From NCBI RefSeq assembly GCF_900220985.1, contig NZ_OCPC01000003.1, positions 248,001 through 312,000 of the forward strand: a stretch of 64,000 bases of DNA, read 5' to 3'. Positions 11,191 through 25,597 of the stretch are shown piece after piece; the first letter of the stretch is position 1; every line of letters begins with the position of its first letter. The notes under the pieces were generated by a model. The model saw nothing but the letters and a program-made list of their open reading frames with translations, did not search any database and had not been told where the DNA came from. Source of the DNA: Parahoeflea halophila. GTDB lineage: Bacteria > Pseudomonadota > Alphaproteobacteria > Rhizobiales > Rhizobiaceae. The position numbers were made by a program, and so were the translations under genes.

Positions 11191-11205
11191 GTCTTGCCTC
11201 TCTTT

Positions 11206-11688
11206 TCAGGTTGTCGTCTTCGGTTCGGCGTTCTCAGGTCCGCGGGGAATCCGGTGCACCGCAGCTATCCGCCGCCGCCAGGAGGGAATCAGGGCGCTTT
11301 CGATCACACCTGCGGCCTCGTAGGCATGGATGAAGTGGTCGGGGCCCGAAAGAATGCCGGCATGCTTGGCCGAGACCCCCGCGCGCCAGCGAAACAGCAC
11401 AATGTCGCCGGGCATGGCATCCGCCGGCGAAATGGCGTCCCCGCAGTGGTCACGCGCCGCGATAAGCAGGCGGTCGCAGCCGGAACGCTCGGCCCAGTCG
11501 GGCGCATAGGCTCCCGGATCCTGGGCCTGCCGCCCTGTCACCTCGGCCCAGACGCCGCGCACCAGACCGCGGCAGTCACAGCCCACCCCTTTGCGTACAC
11601 CCTGGTGCCGGTAGGGCGTGCCGATCCAGCCTCTCGCCGCAGCGACAATGCGCTGGCCTCTGCCATCTTCCATCACGGTACCGCTCAC
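11206..11688 (-). CDS. GTA g14: NlpC/P60-type cell-wall peptidase
   Basis: Predicted cysteine peptidase of the GTA tail tip that opens peptidoglycan during DNA delivery. The 160-residue product has the NlpC/P60 arrangement: GWIGTPYRHQG, then the catalytic Cys in VGCDCRGLVRGVW, and a downstream His in KHAGILSGPDHFIHAYEA. The frame opens with GTG at 11688, overlapping the g13 stop as GTGA; an ATG at 11673 is an alternative start. It is placed between the hub protein g13 and g15 exactly as in other alphaproteobacterial GTA clusters. Confidence 0.92.
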   Translation of the reverse strand: MSGTVMEDGRGQRIVAAARGWIGTPYRHQGVRKGVGCDCRGLVRGVWAEVTGRQAQDPGAYAPDWAERSGCDRLLIAARDHCGDAISPADAMPGDIVLFRWRAGVSAKHAGILSGPDHFIHAYEAAGVIESALIPSWRRRIAAVHRIPRGPENAEPKTTT

Positions 11689-12575: not shown

Positions 12576-13213
12576 GGCTTCATCTCCAGCAGTGGCACGC
12601 TCGGGACGGAGCCTGCCTTGAAGGCTGCCAGGCTCACCTCGATGCGGTCGGTGTCAAAGCGCACCGGAATGTCGAACTCGTAGCCCGCGGTCACGATCGC
12701 GCCCGGTCCCGGGACCGATCCGGGCCCGAACGTCACATGGCCCGTCACGTGATCGACTGTGAAATCGCCCCCAGCGAGCGCCAGACCGTCAATGGCCACC
12801 ACCACGCTGCCCGCGACCGGCTTCTCGATCCGGCGGGTGCTCGAGCCTCCGGCATCCTCGTAGGTCTTGGTCAATTCGAACCCGGTCCGTACCCCGTCCC
12901 CGGTGCCGATCTGCTGATCGATTGCGGTGACCGCCTGGCCCGGCGGGGCGGAAGCATGATCCACAGGATCGCGGAAGCGGAAGCCGTAGAGCTGGCCACG
13001 CCGGGCCTCGAAGAACGCGGTCAGCTGGTAGAGATCCTCGATACCGCGCAGTCCGGTTCCGGCGTCATAACGCCGCCGTGCATCGGCCCAGCGCGCATTG
13101 CGGGTTTCGCCGCCATTGGACAGTGCCACGATGTCGGTGCGCCGCACCGGCCCGCCGCTGGCGCCGAGCGACAGCCTGAGCGGAAACCGTACTTCGTGAA
13201 AACCATTGCTCAT
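12572..13213 (-). CDS. GTA g12: distal tail protein (DUF2460)
   Basis: Distal tail ring protein of the particle. The 213 residues carry the family signature near the N-terminus (FHEVRFPLRLSLGASGGP), the RRYDAG repeat, the QLYGFRFRDPVDH segment and the C-terminal GYEFDIPVRFDTDRI. These define the phage conserved hypothetical family TIGR02217/DUF2460. It starts 15 bases after the g11 stop and overlaps g13. The length equals the typical ~210 residues and nothing suggests damage. Confidence 0.93.
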   Translation of the reverse strand: MSNGFHEVRFPLRLSLGASGGPVRRTDIVALSNGGETRNARWADARRRYDAGTGLRGIEDLYQLTAFFEARRGQLYGFRFRDPVDHASAPPGQAVTAIDQQIGTGDGVRTGFELTKTYEDAGGSSTRRIEKPVAGSVVVAIDGLALAGGDFTVDHVTGHVTFGPGSVPGPGAIVTAGYEFDIPVRFDTDRIEVSLAAFKAGSVPSVPLLEMKP

Positions 13214-13228
13214 CTGATCCCTCCCGGG

Positions 13229-13813
13229 CTAGAGCCCGCGCCGCCCGCGGCCGACCGCACGGGCCAGCATCGCGGTCACCTGGGCTTCGGATTTTGAGAA
13301 ACTCGCCGCATCAGGTGTCGTCACGTTGAAGGTCACCTGCACCGGCTGAACGCCACCGCTTGTGGCCACGCCAAGCCTGCCATCCGGCCCGCGGCTAAGC
13401 GGCAGGATCGCTTCGGCTCCCGCTTCCCCCATCAGGCCGACATCACCGCCCGGCATCGGAAACAGCGAAGGGCCGCCGACCACGCCGCCATCGGCGAAGG
13501 CAGTGACGCGTCCCGGCACGCCGCCTCCGGCGAAAGGCAAGACACGCCCGAGGCTGCCCGACAGTCCGGCGATCGAGTTGCTGACCAGCTGGTTCAGTGG
13601 CCGCGTCCCCGCATCGACCGCAATGCCCACCATGCGCTTGCCCAGTGTGCGCAAAACATCGTCGAGACCACGCCCGTCGACGGTGGCGGATTTCAAGGCT
13701 CCCGACAGCGCCCCGCCGAAGGCATCGGCCTTCTGCGTCAGCTCGTCAAGCGCCCGGTCGGCGCCGTTTAGGTCCAGCTCCACATTGACATTCAGGTTCG
13801 GCTCATCGGGCAT
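13229..13813 (-). CDS. GTA g11: tail tape measure protein
   Basis: Short tape-measure protein of 194 residues, consistent with the short tail of GTA particles. It opens MPDEPNLNVNVELDLNG, continues with an alpha-helical region (ALDELTQKADAFGGALSGAL) and a Gly-rich hydrophobic segment (RVLPFAGGGVPGRVTAFADGG). It ends with the block GEAGAEAILPLSRGPDGRLGV, which is common to phage tape measures. It overlaps the preceding small chaperone gene by 11 bases. Family length is around 200-220, so the product looks complete. Confidence 0.88.
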   Translation of the reverse strand: MPDEPNLNVNVELDLNGADRALDELTQKADAFGGALSGALKSATVDGRGLDDVLRTLGKRMVGIAVDAGTRPLNQLVSNSIAGLSGSLGRVLPFAGGGVPGRVTAFADGGVVGGPSLFPMPGGDVGLMGEAGAEAILPLSRGPDGRLGVATSGGVQPVQVTFNVTTPDAASFSKSEAQVTAMLARAVGRGRRGL

Positions 13814-14045
13814 TGACGGGGTCCTTTGCAGTCGTGACGGGATCGCCGGGGGCGTCGGGGAACAGCGCCATCAGCGATTCAAGCCCTTGCCGGGTGGCTG
13901 TCGGGGGCATCCCGGTCGTTCCAATCAGCGCGCGGAGTTCGGGCAGGCTCAGCTGCCAGAACGCATCGGGTCTTAGCCGCAGGTGGCCGAGGCCGAAGCG
14001 GAGCACGGACGCCCAGGGGAAAAACGTCCGGTCCGGCATCGTCAC
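13803..14045 (-). CDS. GTA g10.1-type phage tail assembly chaperone
   Basis: An 80-residue protein of the TIGR02216-type tail assembly chaperones found between g10 and g11 in GTA clusters. The recognisable part is FPWASVLRFGLGHLRLRPDAFWQLSLPELRA, with the conserved Arg-Phe-Gly-Leu and the DAFW motif. Its ATG overlaps the g10 stop by four bases and its 3' end overlaps g11. Together with g10 it is likely to act as a pair of chaperones keeping the tape measure soluble, as G/GT proteins do in phages. That role is known for the family, not shown here. Confidence 0.85.
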   Translation of the reverse strand: MTMPDRTFFPWASVLRFGLGHLRLRPDAFWQLSLPELRALIGTTGMPPTATRQGLESLMALFPDAPGDPVTTAKDPVNAR

Positions 14046-14455
14046 CTCCCTGCCACCTGCGGCCCGGGAGGGTTTCCAGGCCTGTCCGGAGCCCGGCCCT
14101 CCCGATCTGAAATCTGTGGTGCGTGTCCGGCAGCTTCCGCGCTGCCAAAGCTGACCCAGAGCAGTTCCGTGGCAATGCGGGCAAAGCCTGCCGCCCCGTC
14201 CTCGGTCGACATTTCGGCCACGTCGTCGTCGCTCAACCGGTTGCCGGCGCCGCGCAGTCCGGCACCGACAATGCGGATGATGTCGCCAGCCGAAAGCTGG
14301 CCCGCCTCGAACCGGCCGGCGAGCTCGCCCAGATTGGCAACGTCAAAAGCGCTTTCGAGCTCGGCCAGTGCACCCAGCGTCAGGCACATCAGCCGGGTTT
14401 CGCCGTCAAATTTCGCGGCGATCTCACCGCGGTGGCGGTTGGGATAAATTTTCAT
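14042..14455 (-). CDS. GTA g10: tail chaperone
   Basis: 137-residue GTA gp10-family protein. Features are NRHRGEIAAKFDGETRLMCLTLGALAELE near the N-terminus and GRFEAGQLSAGDIIRIVGAGLRGAG in the middle. The segment after about residue 115 is Arg/Gly/Pro-rich and more variable. It begins eight bases after the end of the restored g9 frame (14463) and overlaps the next small gene by four bases. In the RcGTA scheme it sits with g10.1 between the tail tube protein and the tape measure. Confidence 0.87.
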   Translation of the reverse strand: MKIYPNRHRGEIAAKFDGETRLMCLTLGALAELESAFDVANLGELAGRFEAGQLSAGDIIRIVGAGLRGAGNRLSDDDVAEMSTEDGAAGFARIATELLWVSFGSAEAAGHAPQISDREGRAPDRPGNPPGPQVAGR

Positions 14456-14462
14456 TGCCGCC

Positions 14463-14869
14463 TCACAGCGCTGCGAAGCTCAGCGCGCCGGCCGATTCCA
14501 GCGCGATTTCGAACGTCATCTCGCCGTCATGGCGGCCGGCATATTCGAGCGCGATGATCTGGAACGGTCCCGTCACGGTGCCGAAATCCGGTATCGCCAC
14601 CTGCCAGTCGCGAATCTCGCTGGCGAAAAAACGCTTCGCGTCAGCGCATCGCTGGCCTGGTCCTTGAACAAGCCGCCGCCCGAAAGCGACGCCCGCTGCA
14701 CACCGGCGCCACCCAGAAGCTCACGCCAACGCCCGGCAGATTCGGCGTCGGTGATGTCGACGGCCTCGGCATTGAACGCCAGCCGCCGGGCCCGCAGGCC
14801 TGCAATGGTCACGAAACCCCCGCCATCATCAATCTTGATAAGCAGGTCCTTGCCTTTCTGCGCCGTCAT
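14463..14869 (-). CDS. GTA g9: major tail tube protein, interrupted by a -1 frame change
   Basis: Major tail protein (TP901-1 type) that polymerises into the tail tube. The frame from ATG 14869 reads MTAQKGKDLLIKIDDGGGF through AFNAEAVDITDAESAGRW and GVQRASLSGGGLFKDQASDAL. It then leaves the family pattern and stops at 14573 after 98 residues. Stepping back one base at a run of six T (plus-strand A at 14626-14631) restores a perfect family ending (FASEIRDWQVAIPDFGTVTG to LESAGALSFAAL), stopping at 14463 for 135 residues in all. The start has an AAAGGA ribosome site. Either an indel/assembly error or slippage explains it. Confidence 0.88.
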
Positions 14870-14918
14870 GGAATTTTCCTTTCAGTTTCCGGATGGGCAT
14901 TGACGGAACCGGCGGCTG

Positions 14919-15317
14919 CTATGGTTCGGTCACCGCGCGAAATCTCAGCCGCGCCACATGCAGCGCCGTTTTCGGCGCGCGGCGGCTCACAGTGCGTTCA
15001 TGCCGAAGGTTGATCAGCACCGCGCCATCAAGGGTCAGTTCTGCATCATGGAGTGCGTCGCGAACCGCATCTGCCAGTTCCACGGCCTGACGGCGGCCAT
15101 TCTGCCGGGTCCAGGCCTCGATCTCGAACCGGTGCACCGTGCCGTCCCCGTCACCGGTCGAATAATCGGCCATGGTCATCACACCAATCACCAGGTATGG
15201 CGGCTCGGCGCGGGTGATCTGCCGGTCGAAGATCCGGCCCGGCCCGGTAATCGCCAGCACATCCGGGCTGATGGACAGGCGTTCGACGACAGCACTCTGC
15301 AATGCGTTGGCGCTCAT
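14919..15317 (-). CDS. GTA g8: tail terminator / minor tail protein (DUF3168)
   Basis: 132-residue protein of the DUF3168 family that caps the tail tube next to the head. I use the ATG at 15317 (MSANALQSAVVERL) because it overlaps the g7 stop as ATGA (15314-15317), rather than the in-frame start at 15341. Typical segments are PPYLVIGVMTMADYSTGDGDG, FEIEAWTRQNGRRQAVELADAV and the C-terminal LHVARLRFRAVTEP. It lies 49 bases upstream of g9. Confidence 0.9.
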   Translation of the reverse strand: MSANALQSAVVERLSISPDVLAITGPGRIFDRQITRAEPPYLVIGVMTMADYSTGDGDGTVHRFEIEAWTRQNGRRQAVELADAVRDALHDAELTLDGAVLINLRHERTVSRRAPKTALHVARLRFRAVTEP

Positions 15318-15649
15318 GGCCAGCACTCCTCGCAGTCGCACAGCAGGTAGCGGCGGCTCTCGTCGGGATCGCGCAGCGTGCGGATTTCGAGGACACGGCT
15401 GCCATAGACAAAGCGCATGGCGTGGTGGATATCGTCGCGGTGGCGGATGGTGACCCGGTGCGAGATCGGCGCCAGCACAGCGCCTGCCTGTTCCCGCGCG
15501 GCTGCCCGCAGCGGCTCGATCCGCCCCCAGAGCGTGGCGACCGGGGTCCAGCTTTCGCTCACCCCGCCCTGCCCGTCGTCCAGCCCCTCCGAAGTTTCAA
15601 GCACCAGCCGCGCGCTCAGACGGCCCGGATCGACCACCATGGCTCCCAT
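15314..15649 (-). CDS. GTA g7: head closure / stopper protein
   Basis: Head-tail joining (stopper) protein of about 111 residues. Diagnostic parts are DPGRLSARLVLE, the VSESWTPVATLWGRIEPL block and VTIRHRDDIHHAMRFVYG, all typical of SPP1 gp16-like head closure proteins. The ATG at 15649 overlaps the last base of the g6 stop (TGATG); a GTG at 15652 and an ATG at 15640 are alternatives. It ends with a Cys-rich tail (LLCDCEECWP) and overlaps g8 by four bases. Confidence 0.9.
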   Translation of the reverse strand: MGAMVVDPGRLSARLVLETSEGLDDGQGGVSESWTPVATLWGRIEPLRAAAREQAGAVLAPISHRVTIRHRDDIHHAMRFVYGSRVLEIRTLRDPDESRRYLLCDCEECWP

Positions 15650-16215
15650 CACAGAGCCCGCCTTTGCCAGGGCGCGATCAGCCGCTGATAGCCAGGCGGA
15701 ACCGACGCCGGCTGCATCTCGGCCGTCACCGCACCGCGAAACACGTAAAGATGGGCAGCGTGAACGAGGATCGCCCGCTTGAGTTCGGGCGGCACCTCGG
15801 TGCCCGCGCCAAAGCCGGCCGTAAACTCGATCTCGATGCCATTGATCGGCTGGCTCGGTCGTGGCCGTCCCCGCACCACCAGCCGCGCGGGCTTGGCGGT
15901 CGCGTCGAGCAGGAGACCGCTCAGGTCCTGATCCTGCGCCACACCATCCGCGTCGTAAACCAGAATCGCATCAATGGTTTGAACCGGGGTTTTCATCAGC
16001 GGAATCACGTCACTTCGCGGCCAGTCGTCGAGCACAAGGCGGAAGCTCCGGGTCATCAGTGCGGTGCCCGTAACCGCTTCGAGGTGGGTGCGAGCGACAC
16101 GGATCAGGCTTTCAAGCAGCTCGTTCTCGTCGTTGGCGTCGATCCGCAAATGCGCCTTCAGCTCGGCAAGCGTCACCGGTTCCGCCAGCGGCGGATCGGT
16201 CTCAATCAGGGTCAT
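15649..16215 (-). CDS. GTA g6: head-tail connector (adaptor)
   Basis: 188-residue gp6-like connector forming the adaptor ring below the portal. The family signature is at the N-terminus (EPVTLAELKAHLRIDANDENELLESLIRVARTHLE), followed by FRLVLDDWPRSDVIPLM and a C-terminal helix ending YQRLIAPWQRRAL. It starts 89 bases after the capsid stop. That spacer contains two stem-loops and is the widest gap among the genes from g15 to g5. The gene appears intact. Confidence 0.91.
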   Translation of the reverse strand: MTLIETDPPLAEPVTLAELKAHLRIDANDENELLESLIRVARTHLEAVTGTALMTRSFRLVLDDWPRSDVIPLMKTPVQTIDAILVYDADGVAQDQDLSGLLLDATAKPARLVVRGRPRPSQPINGIEIEFTAGFGAGTEVPPELKRAILVHAAHLYVFRGAVTAEMQPASVPPGYQRLIAPWQRRAL

Positions 16216-16248
16216 GGCAGTCTTCGGGAATAAAGGTCGTCAGGGATG

Positions 16249-16300
16249 GTTCCCTCCCCCGAGCCTGTCGGGAGAGGGCTGGTCCGGGAGGAGCGGACCT
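16249..16300 (-). promoter_or_regulatory. Two stem-loops between capsid (g5) and connector (g6) genes
   Basis: The 89-base g5-g6 spacer contains an imperfect C-rich/G-rich inverted repeat (CCCTCCCCCGA at 16252-16262 against TCGGGAGAGGG at 16268-16278) and a six-base-pair hairpin, GGTCCG at 16280-16285 against CGGACC at 16293-16298. No U-tract follows, so these are not classic terminators. They could protect the 3' end of capsid mRNA or reduce readthrough into tail genes. The role is inferred from position only. Confidence 0.4.
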
Positions 16301-16304
16301 TGTG

Positions 16305-17549
16305 TCAGGCGGCAAATTTCAGAAGCTTGATCGCCTCGAAATTCTGCACCCCGCCACCGACACGCTTGGTGGTGTAAAACAGCACATAGGGCTTGGCCGA
16401 ATAGGGATCGCGCAGGACGCGCACCCCGGTGCGGTCAACGACCAGGTAACCGCGGCGGAAATCACCAAAGGCGATCGCCAGCGCATCGGCGGCCACATCC
16501 GGCATGTCCTCGGCCTCGACCACCGGGAAGCCCATCAGCGAGGCAGCCTGTCCCACGCCCGCCGGTGGCACCCAGAGATAATTGCCGTCCGCATCCTTGA
16601 ACTTGCGGATCTGGCTCTGAGTCTTGCGGTTCATCACGAAGCGCCCGTTCTGCCGATGCCCTGCTTTGAGCGCATAGATGAGTTCCACCAGCCGGTCGGA
16701 CGGGTCGGCACCGAACGCGCCTGCCGATCCGGTGGCGATGTGACCGAGATTGCCCCAGCTCCAGCTGTCATCATCCACGCTGGGATAGTCGAGAAAGCCG
16801 CGCGGCTTGTTGACACCGTCTCCGGTCACAATCGCCGCGCCTTCCTGCTCGGCAAAGGCGGCTTCCACCTCGCTCGCAATCCAGCCCTCGATGTCGAGCG
16901 CGCCATCCTCGATAAGCGAGGCCGTTGCCGCCGGCATGGCGTAAAGCTCCATGGTCGGAAACTGCAGCTCCGCCAGCTGCGGCGCCGCCGTCTGCGGCCG
17001 GGCATCGGTCTCGCCGACCCAGCCGGTGGCCATGCCGTCGAGCGCAAACGGCTTCTTCAGCACCGCGCCCGAGACCTGCCGCACGGTGGCGATCGAACGT
17101 ATCGGCGAGAGTTCCGAAAGCCTGCGGCCGATCTCGCTGTCGAGTTCGTCGGGCACCAGATAGCCGCCATCCGGATCGCTGCCGGCCGACATCGCCTTGA
17201 GTTCTGCCTGACGCAGCCCGGCCTCGTCGCCACGCCGCACATAGGCGTCAAATGCCTGGCGCACCGGACTGGGTGCGGCACCTCCGCCTCGTCCAAGGTC
17301 AGGGCGCGCGCGCTTGACCGCAAGCGCATCAAGCGCACGTTTCTGCTCGTCCAGTGCGGTGTCGATGCGCGCCATCTTTTCTTCCGTCACGATGTCGGCA
17401 CTGCCGCGGCGTTCGATCTCGGCCAGGCGTTCGTCATTGGATTGCTTGTAGTGCTCGAAAGCGGACATGAAGTCCTCGAAGGCAGCGGAAACGTCGGCGT
17501 CGACGCTCTTGGTTTCCGGCGCTCGGGTGTTATCAAACGCGGTCGTCAT
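16305..17549 (-). CDS. GTA g5: major capsid protein (HK97 fold)
   Basis: HK97-type major capsid protein, 414 residues from the ATG at 17549, which has its own AAAGGA ribosome site. The N-terminal third is a charged delta-like region (for example FEHYKQSNDERLAEIERR) that the protease normally removes. The capsid core includes SDPDGGYLVPDELDSEIGR, a family hallmark, then LYAMPAATASLIEDG and the C-terminal GDFRRGYLVVDRTGVRVLRD and VGGGVQNFEAIKLLKFAA. There is no stop codon between the protease gene and this start, so the capsid is also the C-terminal part of a longer frame. Confidence 0.95.
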   Translation of the reverse strand: MTTAFDNTRAPETKSVDADVSAAFEDFMSAFEHYKQSNDERLAEIERRGSADIVTEEKMARIDTALDEQKRALDALAVKRARPDLGRGGGAAPSPVRQAFDAYVRRGDEAGLRQAELKAMSAGSDPDGGYLVPDELDSEIGRRLSELSPIRSIATVRQVSGAVLKKPFALDGMATGWVGETDARPQTAAPQLAELQFPTMELYAMPAATASLIEDGALDIEGWIASEVEAAFAEQEGAAIVTGDGVNKPRGFLDYPSVDDDSWSWGNLGHIATGSAGAFGADPSDRLVELIYALKAGHRQNGRFVMNRKTQSQIRKFKDADGNYLWVPPAGVGQAASLMGFPVVEAEDMPDVAADALAIAFGDFRRGYLVVDRTGVRVLRDPYSAKPYVLFYTTKRVGGGVQNFEAIKLLKFAA

Positions 17550-18272
17550 GGTTAGTCCTTTCAATTTCTTGAGGTCGGTGAGCCAGGAGCTCCGGAACAA
17601 GGCGCCGGTCAGGCTGCGCATCCGGGTTATCAGGCGTTTGAGATCCTCCGGCGCAGCGTCCTGCCTGTCCGAAAGGGCGCCATAGCCCCGGGCGATCAGC
17701 CCGCGTGCCTGGCGTCTGGTCAGCCCCGCATCCCGCGTGAGCCTCCGTTCGAGTTCGCGCCGCGTCGGCGCAGCGACTCCCTGTCCGAGCGCCTTGACGG
17801 CAGTCACCCGCGCGCCCGGCTGCATCGGGAATGTCACCACCGAGATCTCCCAGAGATCGGCACTCATGATCCGCCGTATCCCGGCCTTGGCTTCGGTGCG
17901 GGCGCGCAGGGTCTGAAACCCGATCGACAGCCCGTCGAGCGCGCCGGATTTCATCAGCTCGTGCACCTCGCGGGCCCGGGCCACGCCGAGTGCCAGCTTT
18001 CCCTCGACATGCAGGCCGCGCGCGTCCTCGCGGATCGACAGCCAGCGGCCGATCGGCTGGTCCGGATCGTGCTGGTAGAGCATGCGCACATCGGTCGCGC
18101 CGCGGCGTTTGAGCGAAGCGGCGAAAGCACCGGGCTCGATCACGTCACGGCCGAGATCGACGGCGCCGAACAGGCTGGCATAGCCCGAAAAACTGCCGTC
18201 ACCACTGACGTCCTCCAGTGCCAGATCGACGCGCTTGTGCTGCCGTCCGGATGCGCTCCAGTCCGTTGTCAT
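16305..18272 (-). CDS. GTA g4: HK97 prohead protease, in frame with the capsid without a stop
   Basis: The protease matures the procapsid. From the ATG at 18272 (MTTDWSASGRQHKRVDLALE) the peptidase domain covers about the first 185 codons (down to roughly 17700). It includes GYASLFGAVDLGRDVIEPGAF, the His of MLYQHDPDQPIGRW and a Ser in LSIGFQT, the usual His/Ser pair. Instead of ending there, the frame continues through ITRMRSLTGALFRSSWLTDL into the capsid ATG at codon 242. It could make a 655-residue protease-capsid fusion. Independent capsid initiation is supported by its own ribosome site. Whether the stop was lost or the fusion is functional cannot be told here. Confidence 0.85.
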   Translation of the reverse strand: MTTDWSASGRQHKRVDLALEDVSGDGSFSGYASLFGAVDLGRDVIEPGAFAASLKRRGATDVRMLYQHDPDQPIGRWLSIREDARGLHVEGKLALGVARAREVHELMKSGALDGLSIGFQTLRARTEAKAGIRRIMSADLWEISVVTFPMQPGARVTAVKALGQGVAAPTRRELERRLTRDAGLTRRQARGLIARGYGALSDRQDAAPEDLKRLITRMRSLTGALFRSSWLTDLKKLKGLTMTTAFDNTRAPETKSVDADVSAAFEDFMSAFEHYKQSNDERLAEIERRGSADIVTEEKMARIDTALDEQKRALDALAVKRARPDLGRGGGAAPSPVRQAFDAYVRRGDEAGLRQAELKAMSAGSDPDGGYLVPDELDSEIGRRLSELSPIRSIATVRQVSGAVLKKPFALDGMATGWVGETDARPQTAAPQLAELQFPTMELYAMPAATASLIEDGALDIEGWIASEVEAAFAEQEGAAIVTGDGVNKPRGFLDYPSVDDDSWSWGNLGHIATGSAGAFGADPSDRLVELIYALKAGHRQNGRFVMNRKTQSQIRKFKDADGNYLWVPPAGVGQAASLMGFPVVEAEDMPDVAADALAIAFGDFRRGYLVVDRTGVRVLRDPYSAKPYVLFYTTKRVGGGVQNFEAIKLLKFAA

Positions 18273-18331
18273 GATTGCTGTCCTTGCTGTTCGTGAAGTG
18301 CCTGTTGCCCCGGCGGCGAGACCCGGGCCGG

Positions 18332-18658
18332 TTATTGTCTTGCCGCCGGTCCGCGCCCGGCCCGGTCGGCGATGCGGGCCAGCGCGCCGAGCACCCACCA
18401 GGCGGTCATGGAAGCGGCCGCCGATCCGGTGAGCAGGGTTTCGGTTGGCGAAAGCAGTCCGCTCACCCCCATCCACTGTGCCAGTGCCACACCGGCCGGC
18501 GCGCCGAAAACGAGCCCCGAAACGACACCGGCAATGGCCCGGGCCACAGCTTCGCGCGTGCCCTTGGGCATCATGTAGGCGAGTGAAACCAGCGCGCCTG
18601 CAACAGCCCCGGCGGTGCGGGCGGCCAGCATTGCCGGCTCCGGATCCATGCTCTGCAT
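18332..18658 (-). CDS. GTA g3.5-position small membrane protein (DUF6107-like)
   Basis: 108-residue protein between portal and protease. The start at ATG 18658 is supported by a strong GGAGG site at 18666-18670; the frame opening at 18739 is longer but would overlap g3 and lacks such a site. Two or three hydrophobic helices are visible (LAARTAGAVAGALVSLAYMM, IAGVVSGLVFGAPAGVALAQ, MTAWWVLGALARI). In rhizobial GTA clusters the protein here is annotated DUF6107, as I recall. Its function is not known; a membrane role in assembly is a guess. Confidence 0.75.
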   Translation of the reverse strand: MQSMDPEPAMLAARTAGAVAGALVSLAYMMPKGTREAVARAIAGVVSGLVFGAPAGVALAQWMGVSGLLSPTETLLTGSAAASMTAWWVLGALARIADRAGRGPAARQ

Positions 18659-18725
18659 CGCGTTACCTCCGGCGGCCGGTTCCGCCTTGCAAATTGATTC
18701 AGGTTGTTGGGAATGTGAGTCCGGT

Positions 18726-19919
18726 TCAGCCCGCAACACGCTGATATCCCACGGCTTCCCGCTTTTCCTCGTCGGTGAGGAAGTCCGCTGCGCCGACCCG
18801 AGCCCAGAGCCCGTCGCGCTCGGCGGACAATCCCGGCAACCGGTCGGCGTCGTAATCGATCTTGAGCCCTGCGCCGTAGACCTGCTGCAACCAGGCGGTC
18901 AGCGCGGCGGCGGTCCGGTGCACCAGCGGCAGCACGGTCAGCCGGCAAAACGCGCGGTTGGCCTCCTGGTAATTGGCGTAGGTCAGATCGCCGGGAATGC
19001 CCAGCAGCATCGGCGGCACCCCGAGCGCCAGGGCGATGTCGCGGGCAGCCCCGTTCTTCGCCTCGATGAAATCCATGTCGCGCGGCGTCAGCCCCATCGC
19101 CTTCCAGTCGAGCCCGCCTTCGAGCAGCATCGGACGGCCGGCCCGGCGCGCCCCCTGATAGCCGTCCTCGAGTTCGGCCTTGAGCCGTTCATATTGTTCC
19201 GGCGTCAGGTTGCCCCCCTCCTTGGGCTGGTAGACCAGCGCGCCCGACGGGCGGGCGGAATTGTCCAAGAGCGCCTTGTTCCAGCTCATCGCCGCATTGT
19301 GCAGGTCGAGCGCCATCAGCGCTGCCTCCAGCGGCGCAAATCCCAGATGATCATCGAGCGGGTGAAACAGCTTGAGATGCAAAAGCCCAGGCCCTTCCTC
19401 CGGGCTCACAGCAAAGCGCTGCCGCCTGCCGCCGGCCTGGTGCTCATAGGCTGCCGGCCATCCGTCGCCCCCCTCGATGACCCGCATCCGGTCGGGCCGC
19501 AAAAGCTGCAACCCGGCAAGGTGGCCACCGGCGCTCACCGGGTTGATCCAGGCATTGCCCGAGAGCACCAGATGGCCGTAGAGCGTTTCGAAAAACCCGT
19601 CACCGGCCCCGTTCGGATCAGGCCTTTGCAACAGGTCAAGCACCGGGTGCCGCTCCTGCTCGCGGCCGCCGTCAAAAACCAGCCAGGGCACCGAGGCTGC
19701 GGCTTCTGCAATCATCCGTGTCGCGCGATGCGCCACCGGATTGCGCATGAACCCCTCGCGGGACATTGCCGGATAGCTGCGCGAACTCCACTGTGCGCCC
19801 GCGTCCGCGGACAGCGCCGCAAGCGCGCCCGGCAACCAGCTCTTGGCGGCAGGTGCGCGCATCCGGGACGGGTGGGTCCGCGCCTCGCCGTGCCAGGGAA
19901 GCCGAAATCCAAATGCCAT
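18726..19919 (-). CDS. GTA g3: portal protein
   Basis: Dodecameric portal of the head (HK97 family). From the ATG at 19919 (MAFGFRLPWHGEARTHP), which has an AGGAAAGG site, the product is 397 residues. The frame is open further upstream, but that stretch contains a terminator and a dispersed repeat, so it is not coding. Family segments are NPVAHRATRMIAEAAASVPW, GHLVLSGNAWI, LKLFHPLDDHLGFAPLEAAL and the C-terminal VPPMLLGIPGDLTYANYQEA. The stop lies 67 bases before the g3.5 start. Confidence 0.94.
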   Translation of the reverse strand: MAFGFRLPWHGEARTHPSRMRAPAAKSWLPGALAALSADAGAQWSSRSYPAMSREGFMRNPVAHRATRMIAEAAASVPWLVFDGGREQERHPVLDLLQRPDPNGAGDGFFETLYGHLVLSGNAWINPVSAGGHLAGLQLLRPDRMRVIEGGDGWPAAYEHQAGGRRQRFAVSPEEGPGLLHLKLFHPLDDHLGFAPLEAALMALDLHNAAMSWNKALLDNSARPSGALVYQPKEGGNLTPEQYERLKAELEDGYQGARRAGRPMLLEGGLDWKAMGLTPRDMDFIEAKNGAARDIALALGVPPMLLGIPGDLTYANYQEANRAFCRLTVLPLVHRTAAALTAWLQQVYGAGLKIDYDADRLPGLSAERDGLWARVGAADFLTDEEKREAVGYQRVAG

Positions 19920-19946
19920 TGCATTGCCCTTTCCTGATCGGGAATC

Positions 19947-19975
19947 AAAAACCCCGCCGGGCAAGCCAGGCGGGG
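19947..19975 (-). terminator. Intrinsic terminator between g2 and g3, on the GTA sense strand
   Basis: On the minus strand a seven-base-pair GC stem (CCCCGCC ... GGCGGGG, plus-strand 19952-19958 and 19969-19975) is followed by TTTTT (plus-strand 19947-19951). It would stop transcripts from the terminase before they enter the portal gene, 28 bases upstream of the g3 start. Full expression of the cluster would need antitermination or a second promoter. Confidence 0.75.
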
Positions 19976-19989
19976 CCATTATCCTCTCC

Positions 19990-20130
19990 GTCTTACCGGA
20001 CTTGATCCAGACAAGCGAAGCGACGTCGTAGCCTCCGGTATCCAGTGGCCCTGCGTCCGCCGGGTCAGAAGCCTCTGTCCAGCCCGATGACCTGGGCGAG
20101 CTGGATTCCGGATCGGGGTCCGGCATGACG
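19990..20130. repeat. Two inverted copies of an intergenic palindromic repeat
   Basis: The spacer between g2 and g3 holds CTGGATTCCGGATCGGGGTC then CGGCATGACG on the plus strand (20101-20130). A related unit in the opposite orientation (19990-20045) contains TACCGGACTTGATCCAG and CCTCCGGTATCCAG. This pattern (CTGGAT.CCGG..C...GTCCGG.ATGACG) is typical of small dispersed palindromic repeats of alphaproteobacterial chromosomes. A genome-wide count would confirm it. Confidence 0.55.
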
Positions 20131-20156
20131 GAACCGCAATGTGTCCTGTTCACCCC

Positions 20157-21494
20157 TCACAGATGCCTGATCTGCGGTGCGCCCCTTTGGCCCAGAAGCA
20201 ATTCGGTCAGCGCCCAGACCAGCGCATCGAGCCGGTCGGGCGAGCGGCCCGACGACAGCCCGTCCGGACCGAAATCGCACATCTGGTCCTCGAGACTGGC
20301 AAAATGGCCGGCATGAACCACCCTACCCTGCTCATAGAGGGCGGCCACCGGTTCGGCACGCAGCCATTTGCCGCGCGTCGCCCGCACGCTGCGCACCGGC
20401 AGCGTCGGCTCGACGGTGCGCAGCACGCTTGTCACCATGTCGCCGCCCTGGTTGATCTCGGCGACCACGCAATCGGCGTCAAAGCGCCGGTAGAGCCGGC
20501 TCACCGCATTGGCCCAGGCCGAGGGGCTCGCGCCCTCGACCGAACCGTCGGCCAGCACCACGGCGCGGCCTTCCGCATCGAGCCCGGCGGCAATGATGCC
20601 GCAGCAGGAATATCTGGCGTCGCTTACCGCCGGCGGATCGACGGCGACCACGATGCGGCCGAGCTGGCCGTGGTTGCGGACCACCAGCGCCTCGATCTGG
20701 TCGCGCCGCCACAGCCCGTCCTCGCGGTCGGCGATCAGCTCGCCGTCGAGTTCCTGCCGCCCGAGCCTTGTGCCGTCATAGCGGTCCCGGATGGCGTCGA
20801 GAAACCCCGCCGCCAGGTGCTGCGCATTGTCCTCGGTGCGGATCCGCGTCACCCGCGTCGCCTTGTCCTTGACCAGCGCCAGCATCAGCGGCGTCGCCCT
20901 CGGCGTGGTCGTCACCAGCTGCCGTGGCGAGGTGCCGAGCCGCAGGCCGAATTGCAGCATGTCCCAGGTCTCGCTGGCATGGCGCCATTTGCCGAGCTCG
21001 TCACACCAGGCGAGATCGAATTGCGGCCCGCGCAGGCTTTCGGGGTCTTCGGATGGAAACATCTGCGCCACCGCTCCCGAGGGCCAGACCAGCCTGCGCC
21101 GCGTCGCCTCGAAGACAGGCCGCCCGGTGCGCGCCACGCCCATGATGCCCGACACCCCGTCGATCATCACCTCGCGGGCATCGCCAAAGGTTTCCGCCAC
21201 CAGCGCGATGCGGCCCTCCCTGCCAAGGCCAGCAATCTCGCCCGAGGCCAGCGCATGCACCCATTCCGCTCCGGCTCTTGTCTTGCCCGAGCCGCGCCCG
21301 CCCATCAAGAGCCAGGTGCGCCAGTCGCCTTCGGGTGGCAATTGCTCCGGCCGCGCCGCAAGCTGCCAGTCCTGCGCATTGGCCAGCAGCGCCCGGTCGT
21401 CGAGCCGGGCGAGATGGGCCGCCACCAGAGCGTCCACCGTCCTCGCACCAGCCTCAAAGCGGGGTTGCGAAATTGAGTCCGGCAATGGCTCCAT
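20157..21494 (-). CDS. GTA g2: large terminase subunit
   Basis: DNA-packaging motor ATPase and nuclease. From the ATG at 21494 (MEPLPDSISQPRF, AAAGGA site) the product is 445 residues, the usual family size. Walker A is LLMGGRGSGKTRAG and Walker B is FDLAWCDELGKW. The nuclease half has VVAVDPPAVS and a late acidic SPDRLDALVWALTELL. The frame is open up to 21713, where an ATG overlaps the g1 stop (ATGA). That start would add 73 Pro/Glu-rich residues and cannot be excluded. It is the second gene of the cluster. Confidence 0.93.
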   Translation of the reverse strand: MEPLPDSISQPRFEAGARTVDALVAAHLARLDDRALLANAQDWQLAARPEQLPPEGDWRTWLLMGGRGSGKTRAGAEWVHALASGEIAGLGREGRIALVAETFGDAREVMIDGVSGIMGVARTGRPVFEATRRRLVWPSGAVAQMFPSEDPESLRGPQFDLAWCDELGKWRHASETWDMLQFGLRLGTSPRQLVTTTPRATPLMLALVKDKATRVTRIRTEDNAQHLAAGFLDAIRDRYDGTRLGRQELDGELIADREDGLWRRDQIEALVVRNHGQLGRIVVAVDPPAVSDARYSCCGIIAAGLDAEGRAVVLADGSVEGASPSAWANAVSRLYRRFDADCVVAEINQGGDMVTSVLRTVEPTLPVRSVRATRGKWLRAEPVAALYEQGRVVHAGHFASLEDQMCDFGPDGLSSGRSPDRLDALVWALTELLLGQRGAPQIRHL

Positions 21495-21709
21495 GCCGTT
21501 GTTTTCCTTTACATTCGGGTCATTTTCTCCGGTGCAAATACCGGTCTCCTGCTCTTGCTCCGGTGGTTGCGGCTCGGCGGCATCGACAGGTTCGGGCTCC
21601 GGCGGTTCATTCGTTGCGGCTTCTGCTTTTGACCGATGCGGGGGTCTGGTAAAAATCACAGGCCTCGCCCAGACGCTGCTTCTCAACGCCAGCGCCATGC
21701 CTCGAATGA

Positions 21710-22288
21710 TCATGCCTCGCGCCCGCGCTCGGCTGCCAGGCGTTCGGCAGCCGCAAGGATCAGCTGGCGCACGGTCTGGCGCAGTTGCTCGCGCTCTCCC
21801 GCACTGAGGTTCTGCTGCGAAGCACGCACCCGGTCCCCGGCAATCAGCCGCTCCATCTGGTCGATCTTTTCCAGCGTCCGGGCAATCAGCGCGACCTGAT
21901 CCACCGCCGGCTTGCCTTCAACCCCGTCGGCGCCGAGCCGTGCGGCCTCGCGGTCAAGCACGGCACGCATCTGCGCAAGCATGCGCTGCGTGCTCTCGGC
22001 CACAAGCGTTGGCGCGGTCACACCGCCGGGCTGAGGCGCAGGCACTGCGCCGTCCGGATCCGCCTCGGTGTCATGCTGCTTGAGCTCCAGCGGCTCGAGC
22101 GCCAGCACCAGATCGATCAGGTGGTCGATCAGCCCGGCTTCGCCGGCACCGCCCGCCGGACAGGATCCCAGGCCGGCCACTGCCACAGGTCCCGGCACAC
22201 CACTTGCCACACCGCGTGCAACTCCGGCCACCGCACCGCCCGCAGCAGACAGCATTTTCCACCCGCCAACCCGAAAGGTCTCGGTCAT
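21710..22288 (-). CDS. GTA g1: candidate small terminase subunit
   Basis: 192 residues from the ATG at 22288 (MTETFRVGGWKMLS). The N-terminal third is Gly/Ala/Pro-rich and poorly conserved-looking. The C-terminal half is strongly helical and charged, with DQVALIARTLEKIDQMERLI and LSAGEREQLRQTVRQLIL. The position directly before the large terminase and the helical pattern fit the g1 small terminase that selects DNA for packaging in RcGTA. A start at 22372 would place codons across a terminator hairpin and is unlikely. The four-base overlap at 21710-21713 couples it to the g2 frame. Confidence 0.7.
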   Translation of the reverse strand: MTETFRVGGWKMLSAAGGAVAGVARGVASGVPGPVAVAGLGSCPAGGAGEAGLIDHLIDLVLALEPLELKQHDTEADPDGAVPAPQPGGVTAPTLVAESTQRMLAQMRAVLDREAARLGADGVEGKPAVDQVALIARTLEKIDQMERLIAGDRVRASQQNLSAGEREQLRQTVRQLILAAAERLAAERGREA

Positions 22289-22334
22289 CACAGCCTCGCA
22301 AATTTCCGCAAAAACCCGGCCGCCTCCGGCCAAC

Positions 22335-22364
22335 AAAAAAGCGCCCCGGAAAACCAGAGGCGCC
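22335..22364 (-). terminator. Intrinsic terminator in the GTA leader, upstream of g1
   Basis: On the minus strand GCGCCTCTGG, a TTTT loop and CCGGGGCGC form a strong stem (plus-strand 22341-22364), followed by six T (22335-22340). It lies about 45 bases before the g1 start codon and points into the cluster. No other minus-strand gene lies within 500 bases upstream that would need it, so it is probably a leader terminator of the GTA transcript. Confidence 0.75.
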
Positions 22365-22508
22365 TCACGCAATCATCGATTTCAAGCAGCGATCGAACCG
22401 GCCCAACCAGCCAACCAGCCCAACCAGCCGCCAGGGCCACATCACCCCGGCAAACCACCACCCTCGCCCCAGTCACCGCTTGCGGCGCATTTCTGTGACG
22501 ATGACATA

Positions 22509-22537
22509 ACCCTACCAAACCCCCGTGACACCGTCAA
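22509..22537 (-). promoter_or_regulatory. Possible sigma-70-like promoter for the GTA leader
   Basis: On the minus strand TTGACG (plus-strand 22532-22537) is followed after 17 bases by TAGGGT (22509-22514). A transcript from here would run about 210 bases, through the leader terminator, before reaching g1. The -35 box is good and the -10 weak, as expected for an activator-dependent promoter. The match is by eye only. Confidence 0.35.
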
Positions 22538-22572
22538 GGATTATTTTCCTATTTTTTGGCGGAGGTAACACT

Positions 22573-22858
22573 ATGCGCCGCACCGTCAAGCACTCCCGTG
22601 TGGAGTATGTCGGCCGCAGAAGTGATGCAGTGACCCACCCCGATACGATTGAAGGCGTCTTCTCGATCTACAAGCGTGGCATGATTGGTATCTAACAGCG
22701 TTGCGGCAAAGCCGACCTGAATCGCTACCTTGCCGAATTTGAATTCCACTATAAACGCCGCTCGCCCCTTAAGATTTCAGACCGCGAACGTGCCGAAGAT
22801 CCGATGGGGCTCAGCCGGCAAGCGATTTACCTATAATCAAACTGGTCGAGCCGCTTAA
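22573..22858 (+). pseudogene. Relic of an IS1595-family transposase (C-terminal part)
   Basis: The plus-strand frame from 22573 reads the C-terminal half of an ISXO2-like transposase: RRTVKHSRVEYVG, then HPDTIEGVFSIYKRGMIGI. An in-frame TAA at 22693-22695 follows, where the family has Tyr, and then QRCGKADLNRYLAEFEFHY. A second lesion near 22805 shifts the frame, after which GSAGKRFTYNQTG restores the usual ending until TAA at 22858. The catalytic N-terminal part is absent. A minus-strand open frame at 22549-22749 is only its shadow. It lies beside the putative GTA promoter. Confidence 0.8.
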
Positions 22859-22896
22859 ACCTACAGAAAGCACGGCGCTTTATGCGCTTGCGGAAA

Positions 22897-23094
22897 TCAC
22901 GACGAAAATAGTTGCACCACCTGCACCACGGCCATTATGGCCGTGGAAACCGCCGCAATAACGGCAGCCACCTGCACCCACCAAGGTAAAGCCATGGTCG
23001 TTACAATCTCCTTCCCGTCCCAATAAAGCCTTCCGCTCACTGTATCGACCGACATACGTTCGAAATCATCAATCGAAATCACTTTTATTGCCAT
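22897..23094 (-). CDS. Tiny single-helix membrane protein, function unknown
   Basis: 65 residues from the ATG at 23094 (MAIKVISIDDFERMS), chosen because a GGAGGAGG ribosome site lies just upstream. The N-terminal 35 residues are soluble and acidic (SGRLYWDGKEIVTT), followed by one long membrane helix (PWWVQVAAVIAAVSTAIMAV) and a short tail. It lies in the AT-richer islet between the GTA cluster and the chromosome core, divergent from the HEPN-like gene 177 bases away. I do not recognise a family. Confidence 0.6.
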   Translation of the reverse strand: MAIKVISIDDFERMSVDTVSGRLYWDGKEIVTTMALPWWVQVAAVIAAVSTAIMAVVQVVQLFSS

Positions 23095-23271
23095 GCTTGC
23101 CTCCTCCACCACTTCGGTGAGGGCAACATAGACTAGTTAGACGGCTCTCCCCAAATTAGGTTTGTCTTCCCCCTTCTCCGATTCCCGCTTAGGCTTCGGG
23201 GGCGTCGGTAATGCGCGGCGCACTGTTTTATCGCGACGTTTTCTTTTCCGTTTCGCTAAAAAGGTCACCTC

Positions 23272-23838
23272 ATGTCTGACGAACAAGCAAACTCTTACCC
23301 ACCAGATTCCGAACTAAATTTATACTATCTGCTCGTCGGCAGAGTGGCGATGGGTTGGGCCGCGTTTGAAACGCGAATCAATCACACAATTTGGCGTCTG
23401 GCCGGCGTAGAACAATACGCCGGAGCATGCCTGACCGCTCAAATTACCGCTCCCGTGCCTAGGTTCAAAGCATTGGTAGCTCTTGCAAAGTTTCGAGGCG
23501 CATCCGAAGAACGATGCAAAGCCTTGAATTCACTAAGCGCCGCCGCAGATGGGGTTGCGCGTCAGCGTAATAGACTAGTGCATGATCCTGCATACACGAA
23601 CGATGGAAAGCCTTTTCGTCTTCACATTACAGCCGATAGAGCGATCGACTTTGAAATGAAACCGGTAGAACTTCAAGACTTCCAGAAGCTGGAACTGGAG
23701 ATATCAAGAATAACGAACCGCTGCATCCAAGAGATCAGTTTGCTTTTCTCCGAGATTCCTCCGTACGATGATAAATCGTTCTGGCAAGGTGAGGGAATAG
23801 AACTGGGCCCCATGCCAGAAAGAGGTGATTCTACATAA
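23272..23838 (+). CDS. Hypothetical protein with a HEPN-like RNxxxH motif
   Basis: 188-residue soluble, helical protein. The notable feature is AARQ-type helix sequence VARQRNRLVHDP with Arg99-Asn100-x3-His104, the RNxxxH signature of HEPN ribonuclease domains (found in abortive-infection proteins, toxins and RNA-processing enzymes). An upstream helical part includes VGRVAMGWAAFETRINHTIW. Base composition and codon use look AT-richer than the neighbours, suggesting transfer. No nucleotidyltransferase partner or known defence gene adjoins it. A ribonuclease role is possible, but many uncharacterised proteins share this motif. Confidence 0.6.
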   Translation: MSDEQANSYPPDSELNLYYLLVGRVAMGWAAFETRINHTIWRLAGVEQYAGACLTAQITAPVPRFKALVALAKFRGASEERCKALNSLSAAADGVARQRNRLVHDPAYTNDGKPFRLHITADRAIDFEMKPVELQDFQKLELEISRITNRCIQEISLLFSEIPPYDDKSFWQGEGIELGPMPERGDST

Positions 23839-24019
23839 GAATAGCTTCGTCCATCTCGGGGGCAACTTCAATCCCATCTGCCGGTTTGTCGCCTGCTGCC
23901 TTCTTTCGAGTTATTCACTTTTGTCACGCATGAAATTCGGACTATATGCCTATTCTCTTAATTTGGGTGTTGATGCGTAGCAACCATGCCTTAGAGCTCA
24001 GGTTCCCTCGGCTCCAGTT

Positions 24020-24286
24020 TCACTTGAGTCCCAATGCCTTGATCACCCCGATCAGCGTCGACAGGCGCGGGTCGCCGGTCTCGCCGAGCGCATTGTAAAG
24101 GGCTTCGCGGGTCACGCCGGCCTTGCGGGCGATGTCGCTCATTCCGCGCGCCTTGGCGATGTCGCCCAGAGCTGCGGCAAACAGCGCCGGATCGCCCTCG
24201 ATAAGCGCCGCATCCAGATAGGCCGTCGCCATCTCCGGACTGTCAATAAACTCTGTGATATCAATTTGTTGCGTTTCGATTGCCAT
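24020..24286 (-). CDS. Addiction-module antidote protein (HigA-like) without an adjacent toxin
   Basis: 88 residues with the architecture of the TIGR02684 putative antidote proteins. The N-terminus is TEFIDSPEMATAYLDAALIEGDPALFAAALGDIAKARGM and the HTH is SDIARKAGVTREALYNALGETGDPRLSTLIGVIKALGL. The family is normally preceded by a ~100-residue RelE/HigB-type killer gene. Here the preceding gene on the same strand (24298-24693) shows no toxin features, so the antidote is solitary. It may now act as an independent DNA-binding regulator. Confidence 0.85.
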   Translation of the reverse strand: MAIETQQIDITEFIDSPEMATAYLDAALIEGDPALFAAALGDIAKARGMSDIARKAGVTREALYNALGETGDPRLSTLIGVIKALGLK

Positions 24287-24297
24287 TCACCCACCCC

Positions 24298-24693
24298 TCA
24301 ATGCCGTGGATCTTCCGCGATCCGGATCGCGTCCTCGATCTGGGCCTTGAGCACCGGCAGATAGGCCTTGTTCATGGCAATCGTCAGCTCGCCGCCGCCT
24401 TCCAGCGTCAGCATCAGCCCGAGCTCGCCCTGCGGATTCATGGCAAGGCCCATCCGGGTGGTCTTGAGCACCTGGTAATTGGGTTGCTCGTTTTCCGGCA
24501 GAGCCGAGACCACCTGGCCGAGATGACTGGTCAGCGCGGTGATGGTGGCGGGGACCATTTTGGCATCGAATTCGAGAGCGAATTTTTCGCCCTTCGCCGT
24601 TGCAACCACGAGCGCCACCGAGCCGTCGTCCGGCCGCGCCTCGCCGGCCACCAGGGTTTGGAAAATCGGGGCCTTGTTCATGGTCTCGGTCAC
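24298..24693 (-). CDS. Hypothetical protein
   Basis: 131 residues from a GTG at 24693, or 127 from the ATG at 24681 (MNKAPIFQTLVAG). No family is recognised. The protein is a compact alpha/beta type without signal or membrane segments, containing VALVVATAKGEKFALEFDAK, NYQVLKTTRMGLAMNPQGEL and LMLTLEGGGELTIAMNKAYL. It ends 11 bases before the antidote gene and is probably co-transcribed with it. Codon use is like the high-GC core. Confidence 0.6.
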   Translation of the reverse strand: MTETMNKAPIFQTLVAGEARPDDGSVALVVATAKGEKFALEFDAKMVPATITALTSHLGQVVSALPENEQPNYQVLKTTRMGLAMNPQGELGLMLTLEGGGELTIAMNKAYLPVLKAQIEDAIRIAEDPRH

Positions 24694-24820
24694 TTGGCTG
24701 CGCTCCTGTGCTCACATCACGGCGCGGAACCCTTGTCCGCCCCCTTGGCATGTAGGCGGCCGCAGCAGGCATGTCCACCGCCGTCTCTTCCGCACACACC
24801 GCACTTCAAGGTCAGCACGC

Positions 24821-24850
24821 AAAAATACCGCCGGAGAAAATCTCCGGCGG
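24821..24850 (-). terminator. Intrinsic terminator of the DUF1328 gene
   Basis: A ten-base-pair perfect stem (CCGCCGGAGA at 24828-24837, TCTCCGGCGG at 24841-24850) with a three-base loop is followed on the minus strand by TATTTTT. It lies 41 bases after the stop of the small membrane protein gene at 24891. Confidence 0.85.
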
Positions 24851-24890
24851 TTGAGGTGCTTCAGCTTGGGAGGATGAAGAACGTGTCGCG

Positions 24891-25052
24891 CTAGGCGATG
24901 GCAACGATGCCGAGGACGGCAAGCAGAAACAGGATCAGCACGATGCCGATCAGCAGTTTCGCGCCGGTCATGGCGGCACCGGACAGGCGGCCAAAGCCGA
25001 GAAGGCCCGCGACCGCGGCAACAATGAGCAAAATCAGGATCCACTGGATCAT
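24891..25052 (-). CDS. DUF1328 / UPF0391 small membrane protein
   Basis: 53-residue two-helix membrane protein from the ATG at 25052 (MIQWILILLIVAAVAGLLGF), supported by a GGAGG site seven bases upstream. The Gly-rich turn GFGRLSGAAMTGAKLL between two hydrophobic helices is typical of UPF0391 proteins. Function is unknown; relatives are often stress-induced. It forms its own short transcript ending at the terminator at 24821-24850. Confidence 0.82.
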   Translation of the reverse strand: MIQWILILLIVAAVAGLLGFGRLSGAAMTGAKLLIGIVLILFLLAVLGIVAIA

Positions 25053-25144
25053 GGGAAAACCTCCATTTGGCAATTACGGGGTCATAACGCCGCAGGCGGC
25101 GATTTGGTTCCCGGCAGGGCTCAAGTTTCTCGCGCCGGCGCGGC

Positions 25145-25597
25145 TCAGACGTCCTCGCCGGGCCAGTCGACGAGGTAATCCTCGAACTCCTCGACATCCA
25201 CATCAGCCTCGCTGACCGTGCTGCCGCGTACCGAAACGCCGGCCTCGTGCACGGTGTTCGGATCGCCCGAAACCAGCGGATGCCACCAGTAGAGATCAGC
25301 GCCTTCACGCACCAGCCGATAGCCGCAGGTGGGCGGCAGCCAGGTGATGGTCTCGACCTGCTCGGGCGTCAGGCCGATGCAGTCGGGCACGGTGGCCTGG
25401 CGGTTTTCATAGTCCTTGCAGCGGCAGGTGTGGCCGTCAAGCAGGCGGCAGGCAATGTTGGTCCAGGCGATTTCGCCGGTATCCCAGTCTTCAAGCTTGT
25501 TGAGGCAGCAGCGGCCGCAGCCGTCGCAGAGGCTTTCCCATTCCGCCTCGGTCATCTGGGCCAGCGTCTTGGCCTTCCAGAAAGGCTTGGCGTCCAT
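25145..25597 (-). CDS. YcgN-like cysteine cluster protein (UPF0260)
   Basis: 150-residue YkgJ/YcgN family protein. It has the [14 protein letters not shown] cluster near the N-terminus and further cysteines in [27 protein letters not shown] and PPTCGYR, a pattern suited to binding zinc or an Fe-S cluster. [17 protein letters not shown] is the conserved C-terminal block. Biochemical function is not established for the family. It is a single gene, convergent with nothing close; the PBP gene runs divergently from 25761. Confidence 0.92.

Follow-up and report, generated by a model that had tools for sequence, protein, structure and literature searches.

The 64,000-nucleotide stretch of Parahoeflea halophila DNA analysed here (positions 248,001 to 312,000 of contig NZ_OCPC01000003.1), hereafter the window, carries a gene transfer agent (GTA), a domesticated virus that moves host DNA from cell to cell, and we focused on two predicted intrinsic terminators, T1 and T2, within its transcription unit. 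The GTA cluster (g1 to g15) occupies the minus strand from position 22288 down to about 7342, and its nearest loci are those of Hoeflea. Gene g1 (21710–22288; start chosen at the ATG at 22288) stands in the small-terminase position and has no family match, g2 (20157–21713) encodes the large terminase (TerL; Pfam Terminase_6N/6C), and g3 (18726–19919) encodes a portal protein that matched both Pfam Phage_portal and the RcGTA portal Rcc01684 (E 5.4e-123). Genes g4 to g15 (7342–18739) encode a DUF6107 protein, a protease-capsid protein, connectors, the tail tube, the hub and the megatron, with matches to NF048004 GTA_megatron (1642 bits) for the megatron gene, TIGR02218 for the baseplate hub gene and PF11836 for the GTA-gp10 gene. 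The portal, megatron, hub and tail-tube genes of the RcGTA type were all present and in order, which assigns the cluster to that type.

The initial annotation had placed a strong terminator about 45 bases before g1 and a second one between g2 and g3, both oriented to stop GTA transcripts, and all three statements were borne out. T1 (22335–22363, minus strand) lies in the leader and consists of the hairpin GCGCCTCTGGTTTTCCGGGGCGC (22363–22341) followed by a T6 tract (22340–22335); the end of the tract is 46 nt from the ATG of g1. Its folding energy (dG) was -14.8 for the core and -18.3 with three more flanking pairs, and its d-score, calculated with the d'Aubenton Carafa formula, was 44. T2 (19947–19975, minus strand) lies in the g2–g3 gap, 27 nt before the ATG of g3, and consists of the hairpin CCCCGCCTGGCTTGCCCGGCGGGG (19975–19952) and a T5 tract (19951–19947), with a d-score of 41. 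Both face the minus-strand GTA genes, and the transcription unit, scanned from promoter to cluster end, contained no further sense hairpin with d of at least 10. Three weaker sense hairpins, each with d below 10, were found: T1b (22310–22333, minus strand; hairpin at 22333–22316), which follows T1 directly and has a T5 tract; a hairpin with a T tract in the g5–g6 gap (16235–16265, minus strand; dG -12.5); and a bulged hairpin of -16.9 kcal inside g3 (19635–19596), the last two listed by an energy-only scan. A simple pattern scan caught only a short hairpin overlapping T2. No conserved promoter motif was present in the alignments of the 46 nt between T1 and g1 or the 27 nt between T2 and g3, and a promoter at either place was rejected.

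Upstream of T1 we identified a GTA promoter block (22486–22551, minus strand; TAGGAAAATAATCC-TTGACG-N17-TAGGGT-N5-CATCGT...TGCG) that comprises an upstream box, a core promoter and an initially transcribed region, and whose consensus of about 67 bp reads TAGGAAAATAATCC TTGACGGCGTGACGGTnn TTTGA TAGGGT TATGG CATAGT CGGAAAAGTGCG. Of 81 Rhizobiaceae loci, 78 had the block in front of g1 (no match in L044, with 1189 nt upstream of TerL, in L058, with 332 nt, or in L049, at full length), and removal of near-duplicates (17/78) left 61 leaders, in which many columns were identical throughout. Conservation spans about -50 to about +17 from the inferred transcription start, an invariant A at window position 22502. 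On this numbering the -35 hexamer TTGACG (22532–22537, minus strand) lies at -35 to -30 and is near consensus (TTG in 61/61, A and C in 60/61), while the -10 hexamer TAGGGT (22509–22514, minus strand) follows 17 nt later at -12 to -7. A -10-like hexamer, CATCGT in the window and CATAGT in the consensus (22498–22503, minus strand), occupies the inferred positions -1 to +5 in the initially transcribed region and is a candidate sigma-dependent pause element; its A2 and T6 were identical in all 61 leaders. The TAGGAA box and a T at +14 were likewise invariant (61/61), though both lay outside the search pattern. A second sample, which overlaps the first and holds 85 of the 86 TerL-linked block places described below, was selected solely on sequence upstream of the -10 hexamer, and here A at +1, T at +5, C at +6 and T at +14 were conserved in 85/85 promoters. 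The spacer between the -35 and -10 hexamers was also conserved (ACGG in 61/61) and contains an imperfect direct repeat, TGACGG/TnACGG, 8 bp apart, as a candidate binding element. The leader between the block and T1 was unconserved in the alignments.

The presence of a terminator in the leader was not peculiar to the window. Within 400 nt of the block, a terminator with d of at least 25 was detected on the sense strand in 35 of the 61 leaders and on the antisense strand in none, and the second sample gave 38 sense against 0 antisense leader terminators. Ten dinucleotide shuffles yielded only 0–2 such leaders each (mean 0.7 per 61), and the background rate at the same threshold was 25/1604 windows downstream of g2 and 16/1387 windows upstream of the promoter. 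The stem sequences varied between clades, and therefore place and form are kept, not sequence. Among the Hoeflea and Pseudohoeflea loci, T1 was kept in 11/11 (window counted), its seven outer stem pairs were standard in at least 10 of the 11 sequences, and double compensatory changes were found at pair 7 (C-G to G-C) and pair 1 (G-C to A-T). A hairpin in a 5' leader is also the usual form of an RNA-based attenuator, such as a riboswitch, a leader peptide or a protein-binding leader, and T1 could in principle be one. Such an RNA switch is very improbable because the leader between block and T1 is unconserved and sometimes almost absent, the hairpin beginning 16–20 nt past the inferred start in 9/85 promoters and leaving little room for a sensing element, and because an Rfam search of the leader at E ≤ 1 returned no match; the sole Rfam match in 18000–25500 lay at 24816–24852 on the other strand.

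The block itself was closely tied to GTAs. It occurred in 91 of 151 genomes of the GTDB family (reversed-pattern control, 0/151), with a single copy in the window genome, at the GTA (at most 3 mismatches in the upstream half of the block). At 86 of 100 block places a TerL gene followed on the same strand 312–2141 bp downstream. The remaining 14 places comprise one each in G337, G365, G391 and G433, six extra copies in G368, two in G434, one in G390, where TerL lies on another contig, and one in G344, which has no TerL; the first four look like contig breaks, because the TerL of these genomes is found elsewhere, close to where a contig begins. G434 has three blocks, of which one precedes g1, one g3 and the third a second g1-like gene about 35 kb away; each is followed by a strong terminator starting 22–32 nt past the inferred start. 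The copy before g3 sits with its terminator at the g2–g3 junction, where Hoeflea has T2. Of all the observations, this triplication points most clearly to block and terminator being a single functional unit. In G368 (L193–L199), most of the eight blocks retain the region after the -10 hexamer and the copies off the cluster adjoin other genes; an expanded regulon and a dispersed element are both possible.

Beyond the family, a weight matrix built from the 61 leaders was applied to 29 further loci from the order and class and recovered related blocks in 7 of them (L084, L086, L087, L090, L093, L099 and L100); the block/terminator arrangement is old, not universal. In other lineages the stop signal may lie elsewhere, as in Caulobacter, or be absent. 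A pattern search for the block across the class was set aside: of 22 places at no more than 1 mismatch, three were at GTAs (G000, G189 and G012), and the others were taken as background because the reversed control pattern matched at more places than the true one. An assignment of G012 to Rhodobacteraceae was unsupported, and its portal is only distantly like that of RcGTA. Five loci (L131, L132, L136, L142 and L157) showed attractive leader terminators and a related terminase without a GTA portal match, and were therefore treated as prophages, which they probably are, and left out of the GTA counts; the downstream proteins of L131 and L142 matched DUF4055 instead. L142 and L157 combine a sigma-70-like promoter with an A2/T6 hexamer at -1 to +5 and, at most 20 nt from the inferred start, a strong terminator, as would be expected if phages of the class had this late-promoter design in common.

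T2 showed a narrower distribution. It was kept in 9 of the 11 Hoeflea/Pseudohoeflea loci, where it starts 40–101 nt before g3 and carries a T5–T7 tract in 9/9, and it was also found in two loci of another family in the same order (L115 and L116). The g2–g3 gap of the nine loci ranges from 146 to 1354 nt, and the distance to g3 is kept while that to g2 is not. In the window, positions 19990–20140 of this gap are filled by a palindromic intergenic repeat, seen by eye, and L002 has a similar one. Among 12 loci examined, out of 16 representatives with a terminator past the start of g3, the terminator lay at the g8–g9 junction in eight and at g5–g6 in three. The eight loci with a strong g8–g9 terminator (L012, L013, L026, L032, L034, L037, L041 and L045) all had no leader terminator. 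T2 and the hairpins before g6 and g9 in relatives might be partial terminators, or hairpins that process or stabilise mRNA, setting the ratio of structural proteins independently of any antiterminator, a role compatible with a gate at T1. Their location at gene junctions beside capsid or major tail genes, and the distance of T2 to g3 but not to g2 being kept, speak for such a role. The T tract of T2 in all nine loci speaks for termination instead, and a terminator after g2 would favour terminase over portal and capsid in amount, when a particle needs the reverse. On balance we regard this alternative as unlikely, though it is the strongest of those weighed here. No second block was seen before T2 in the 61 representatives: the sense and antisense medians were alike and the best score was far below those of the leader blocks. 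G434, with its block before g3, does not belong to this set.

A candidate antiterminator is encoded in the same window. The gene at 38213–39037 (minus strand) is a gafZ homologue with a DUF6456 domain (PF20057, E 4.3e-48, 163 bits against a Pfam cut-off of 26.3), and it is overlapped by a gafY homologue (39024–39626, minus strand) with a DnaA C-terminal helix-turn-helix domain (PF08299, E 9.7e-13). The pair (38213–39626) lies about 16 kb from the GTA, and DUF6456 occurs once in the genome. DUF6456 was present in 89 of the 91 block genomes, the exceptions being G300 and G403 of the same genus; block, TerL and DUF6456 thus travel together with the GTA, which fits GafZ as the partner of the block without proving it. 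The AlphaFold model of GafZ had a pLDDT of 82.8. A PDB sequence search with GafZ gave 0 matches, and neither Q nor AlpA was among the best 50 of 704 PDB structure matches to the model at E ≤ 10. A sigma region 4 domain, 3hug_K, was among these weak matches (E 0.64, TMt 0.74), which agrees with the prediction of a sigma-like motif in the GafZ of Caulobacter (PMC11150451). The structure was rejected as proof of a Q-like nozzle, since no fold match was significant.

Antitermination of a GTA by GafZ is already known from Caulobacter crescentus (CcGTA), where GafZ is an experimentally supported antiterminator that lets part of the polymerase through the GTA terminator, with a putative site between -35 and -10 (PMC11150451). 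As described there, CcGTA resembles the present system in its split gafY and gafZ genes and in termination within the GTA unit, and a single genomic target of GafZ may be counted as a further shared trait. The comparison with Caulobacter in the initial annotation holds for the logic of control and fails for position: the tested terminator there consists of three 150-bp repeats after g1 (PMC11150451), whereas the predicted terminator of the present leader is a plain hairpin that precedes g1. The promoters also differ, CcGTA having a degenerate -35 (AATCAT) and a palindromic putative GafZ element, and the present block a near-consensus -35 and an invariant -10-like hexamer. The main text of the Caulobacter paper (PMC11150451) contains no occurrence of "pause", "pausing" or "10-like".

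The closest parallels for the block come from phage Q and from AlpA of Pseudomonas aeruginosa. In these systems, according to the published descriptions, a -35/-10 element and an early -10-like sequence hold RNA polymerase in a sigma-dependent pause, during which the antiterminator loads, and terminators are then ignored (PMC6606751, PMC9371919). With Q, as here, the -10-like sequence lies in the initially transcribed region and a terminator follows downstream; the Q element between -35 and -10 has its counterpart here in the conserved spacer, as a candidate only (PMC6606751). The -10-like element of AlpA likewise lies at -1 to +5 with a terminator downstream of the target promoter, and substitution of A at +1 or T at +5, the bases invariant here, impaired antitermination (PMC9371919). 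In the searches described above, no sequence or fold match of GafZ to Q was found and none to AlpA, and what AlpA controls is a lysis operon and not a GTA. The predicted terminator T1 lies between promoter and first gene, as in both systems. Every cis element of the Q/AlpA scheme appears to have a conserved counterpart at this locus, the binding element in the spacer being putative.

We consider it likely that control of the GTA unit follows the pattern of a lambdoid late operon, through a Q/AlpA-type gate served by GafZ. The elements of this gate, their places and their conservation are seen in the sequences; the events at them are proposed as follows. Transcription would initiate at the sigma-70 promoter upstream of g1, and the polymerase would pause after about 14–17 nt, when sigma region 2 grips CATCGT at -1 to +5. 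GafZ, perhaps with GafY, would bind in or near the -35/-10 region and load onto the paused polymerase, which could then pass T1 and later T2 and transcribe g1 to g15. Without GafZ, transcription would stop at T1 and give a leader RNA of about 165–170 nt. In Caulobacter, a near-consensus -35 made the promoter active independently of GafYZ (PMC11150451); the native -35 here is near consensus, and therefore the promoter may fire without GafY, with T1 as the main off-switch. The claim that a processive antiterminator would be needed to reach the tail genes is, as a prediction from sequence, well supported for T1, on its position, conservation and promoter block and on the nearby gafYZ pair; T2 is a real feature of restricted distribution.

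A second reading holds that the promoter is controlled by activation only, through GafY- or integration host factor (IHF)-like proteins, and that T1 and T2 are leaky, incidental or guards against low-level read-through, with no antiterminator needed. GafY and IHF are required for initiation in Caulobacter (PMC11150451), and 26/61 and 47/85 leaders of the two samples had no terminator with d of at least 25 despite an intact block. T1 is located downstream of the conserved block, so it would cut the unit's own transcripts, and it keeps its place while the stem varies with compensatory changes. The -10-like hexamer is invariant, though not known to be needed for activation, and block and terminator recur together three times in G434. 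Taken together, these observations leave control by activation alone improbable.

Several further observations count, like the leaders that lack a strong terminator, against the gate. In the scanned part (up to 12 kb), 15/61 loci had no strong terminator at all, the eight blocks of G368 are without strong terminators, and the block was absent (at most 3 mismatches) from 28/118 TerL genomes of the family. At class level, 60 of 80 TerL-positive genomes were examined; among the 27 loci with a portal match that these yielded, a strong terminator lay 400–750 nt before TerL in only 6, and a strong antisense terminator occurred somewhere within 2.6 kb in 3. Stem pair 8 of T1 was standard in only 6/11 sequences; T2 reached d of at least 25 in 9/61 non-redundant loci, all Hoeflea/Pseudohoeflea, and was decayed in both H. 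alexandrii loci. No palindrome like the Caulobacter GafZ site was identified in the block, the 61-leader alignment revealed no conservation beyond about -50 that could mark a GafY site, and the GafZ model had 0 PDB matches at E ≤ 0.001. The conservation counts are moreover inflated by shared ancestry, the loci not being phylogenetically independent.

A wider proposal, which we advance tentatively and hold slightly less probable than its negation, is that block and adjacent terminator form a self-contained, duplicable cassette derived from an ancestral phage late promoter, in which a sigma-dependent pause would load GafZ, making DUF6456 a further, unrelated class of Q-like antiterminators. On this view the cassette was the switch ancestral to rhizobial GTAs, and perhaps to those of many Alphaproteobacteria, and in some genomes it would have been duplicated to further promoters (G434 has three blocks, G368 eight).

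The initial annotation had pointed out that the terminators are visible here in the DNA of an order other than that of Caulobacter. Antitermination has reportedly been described in a GTA of this same order, the Bartonella BaGTA, to go by the title of a 2025 eLife paper by Korotaev et al.; BaGTA is chimeric and of other phage origin. No published account of the block, of a pause element or of leader terminators in RcGTA-type clusters turned up in a search that excluded most subscription journals and preprints; the word "terminator" does not occur in the main text of two R. capsulatus papers.

Other features of the locus were also recorded. About 20 bp separate the promoter block from the start of an IS1595-type (ISXO2-like) transposase remnant upstream of it, with interrupted frames (22573–22890, plus strand; weak match, E 0.008, under the cut-off). 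In other Hoeflea loci a terminator lies upstream of the GTA; a similar one is present in the window at 24851, seemingly parted from the GTA promoter by about 2.3 kb of inserted DNA, and this inserted stretch contains an HI1420-type addiction-module antidote gene (24020–24286, minus strand; PF21716, E 1.8e-25). Within the cluster, the prohead protease and major capsid domains share one 723-codon frame (16305–18476, minus strand); no stop separated the domains in 6 of 8 Hoeflea loci (window counted), a stop was present in 2, and in L009–L011 the two parts lie in different frames.

The question addressed is how a lethal domesticated phage is kept silent yet ready. If the gate operates as proposed, rhizobial GTAs would rely on a poised promoter followed by a stop signal, and one protein would free the whole 15-kb unit. 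The results suggest that GafZ may be loaded by a sigma-dependent pause, a step absent from the main text of the Caulobacter paper, and the block offers a sequence signature by which GTA promoters can be recognised specifically: of its 100 matches in the 151 genomes, 86 precede TerL. The Caulobacter result would then become a testable rule with defined bases, the A and T of the hexamer and the stem of T1.

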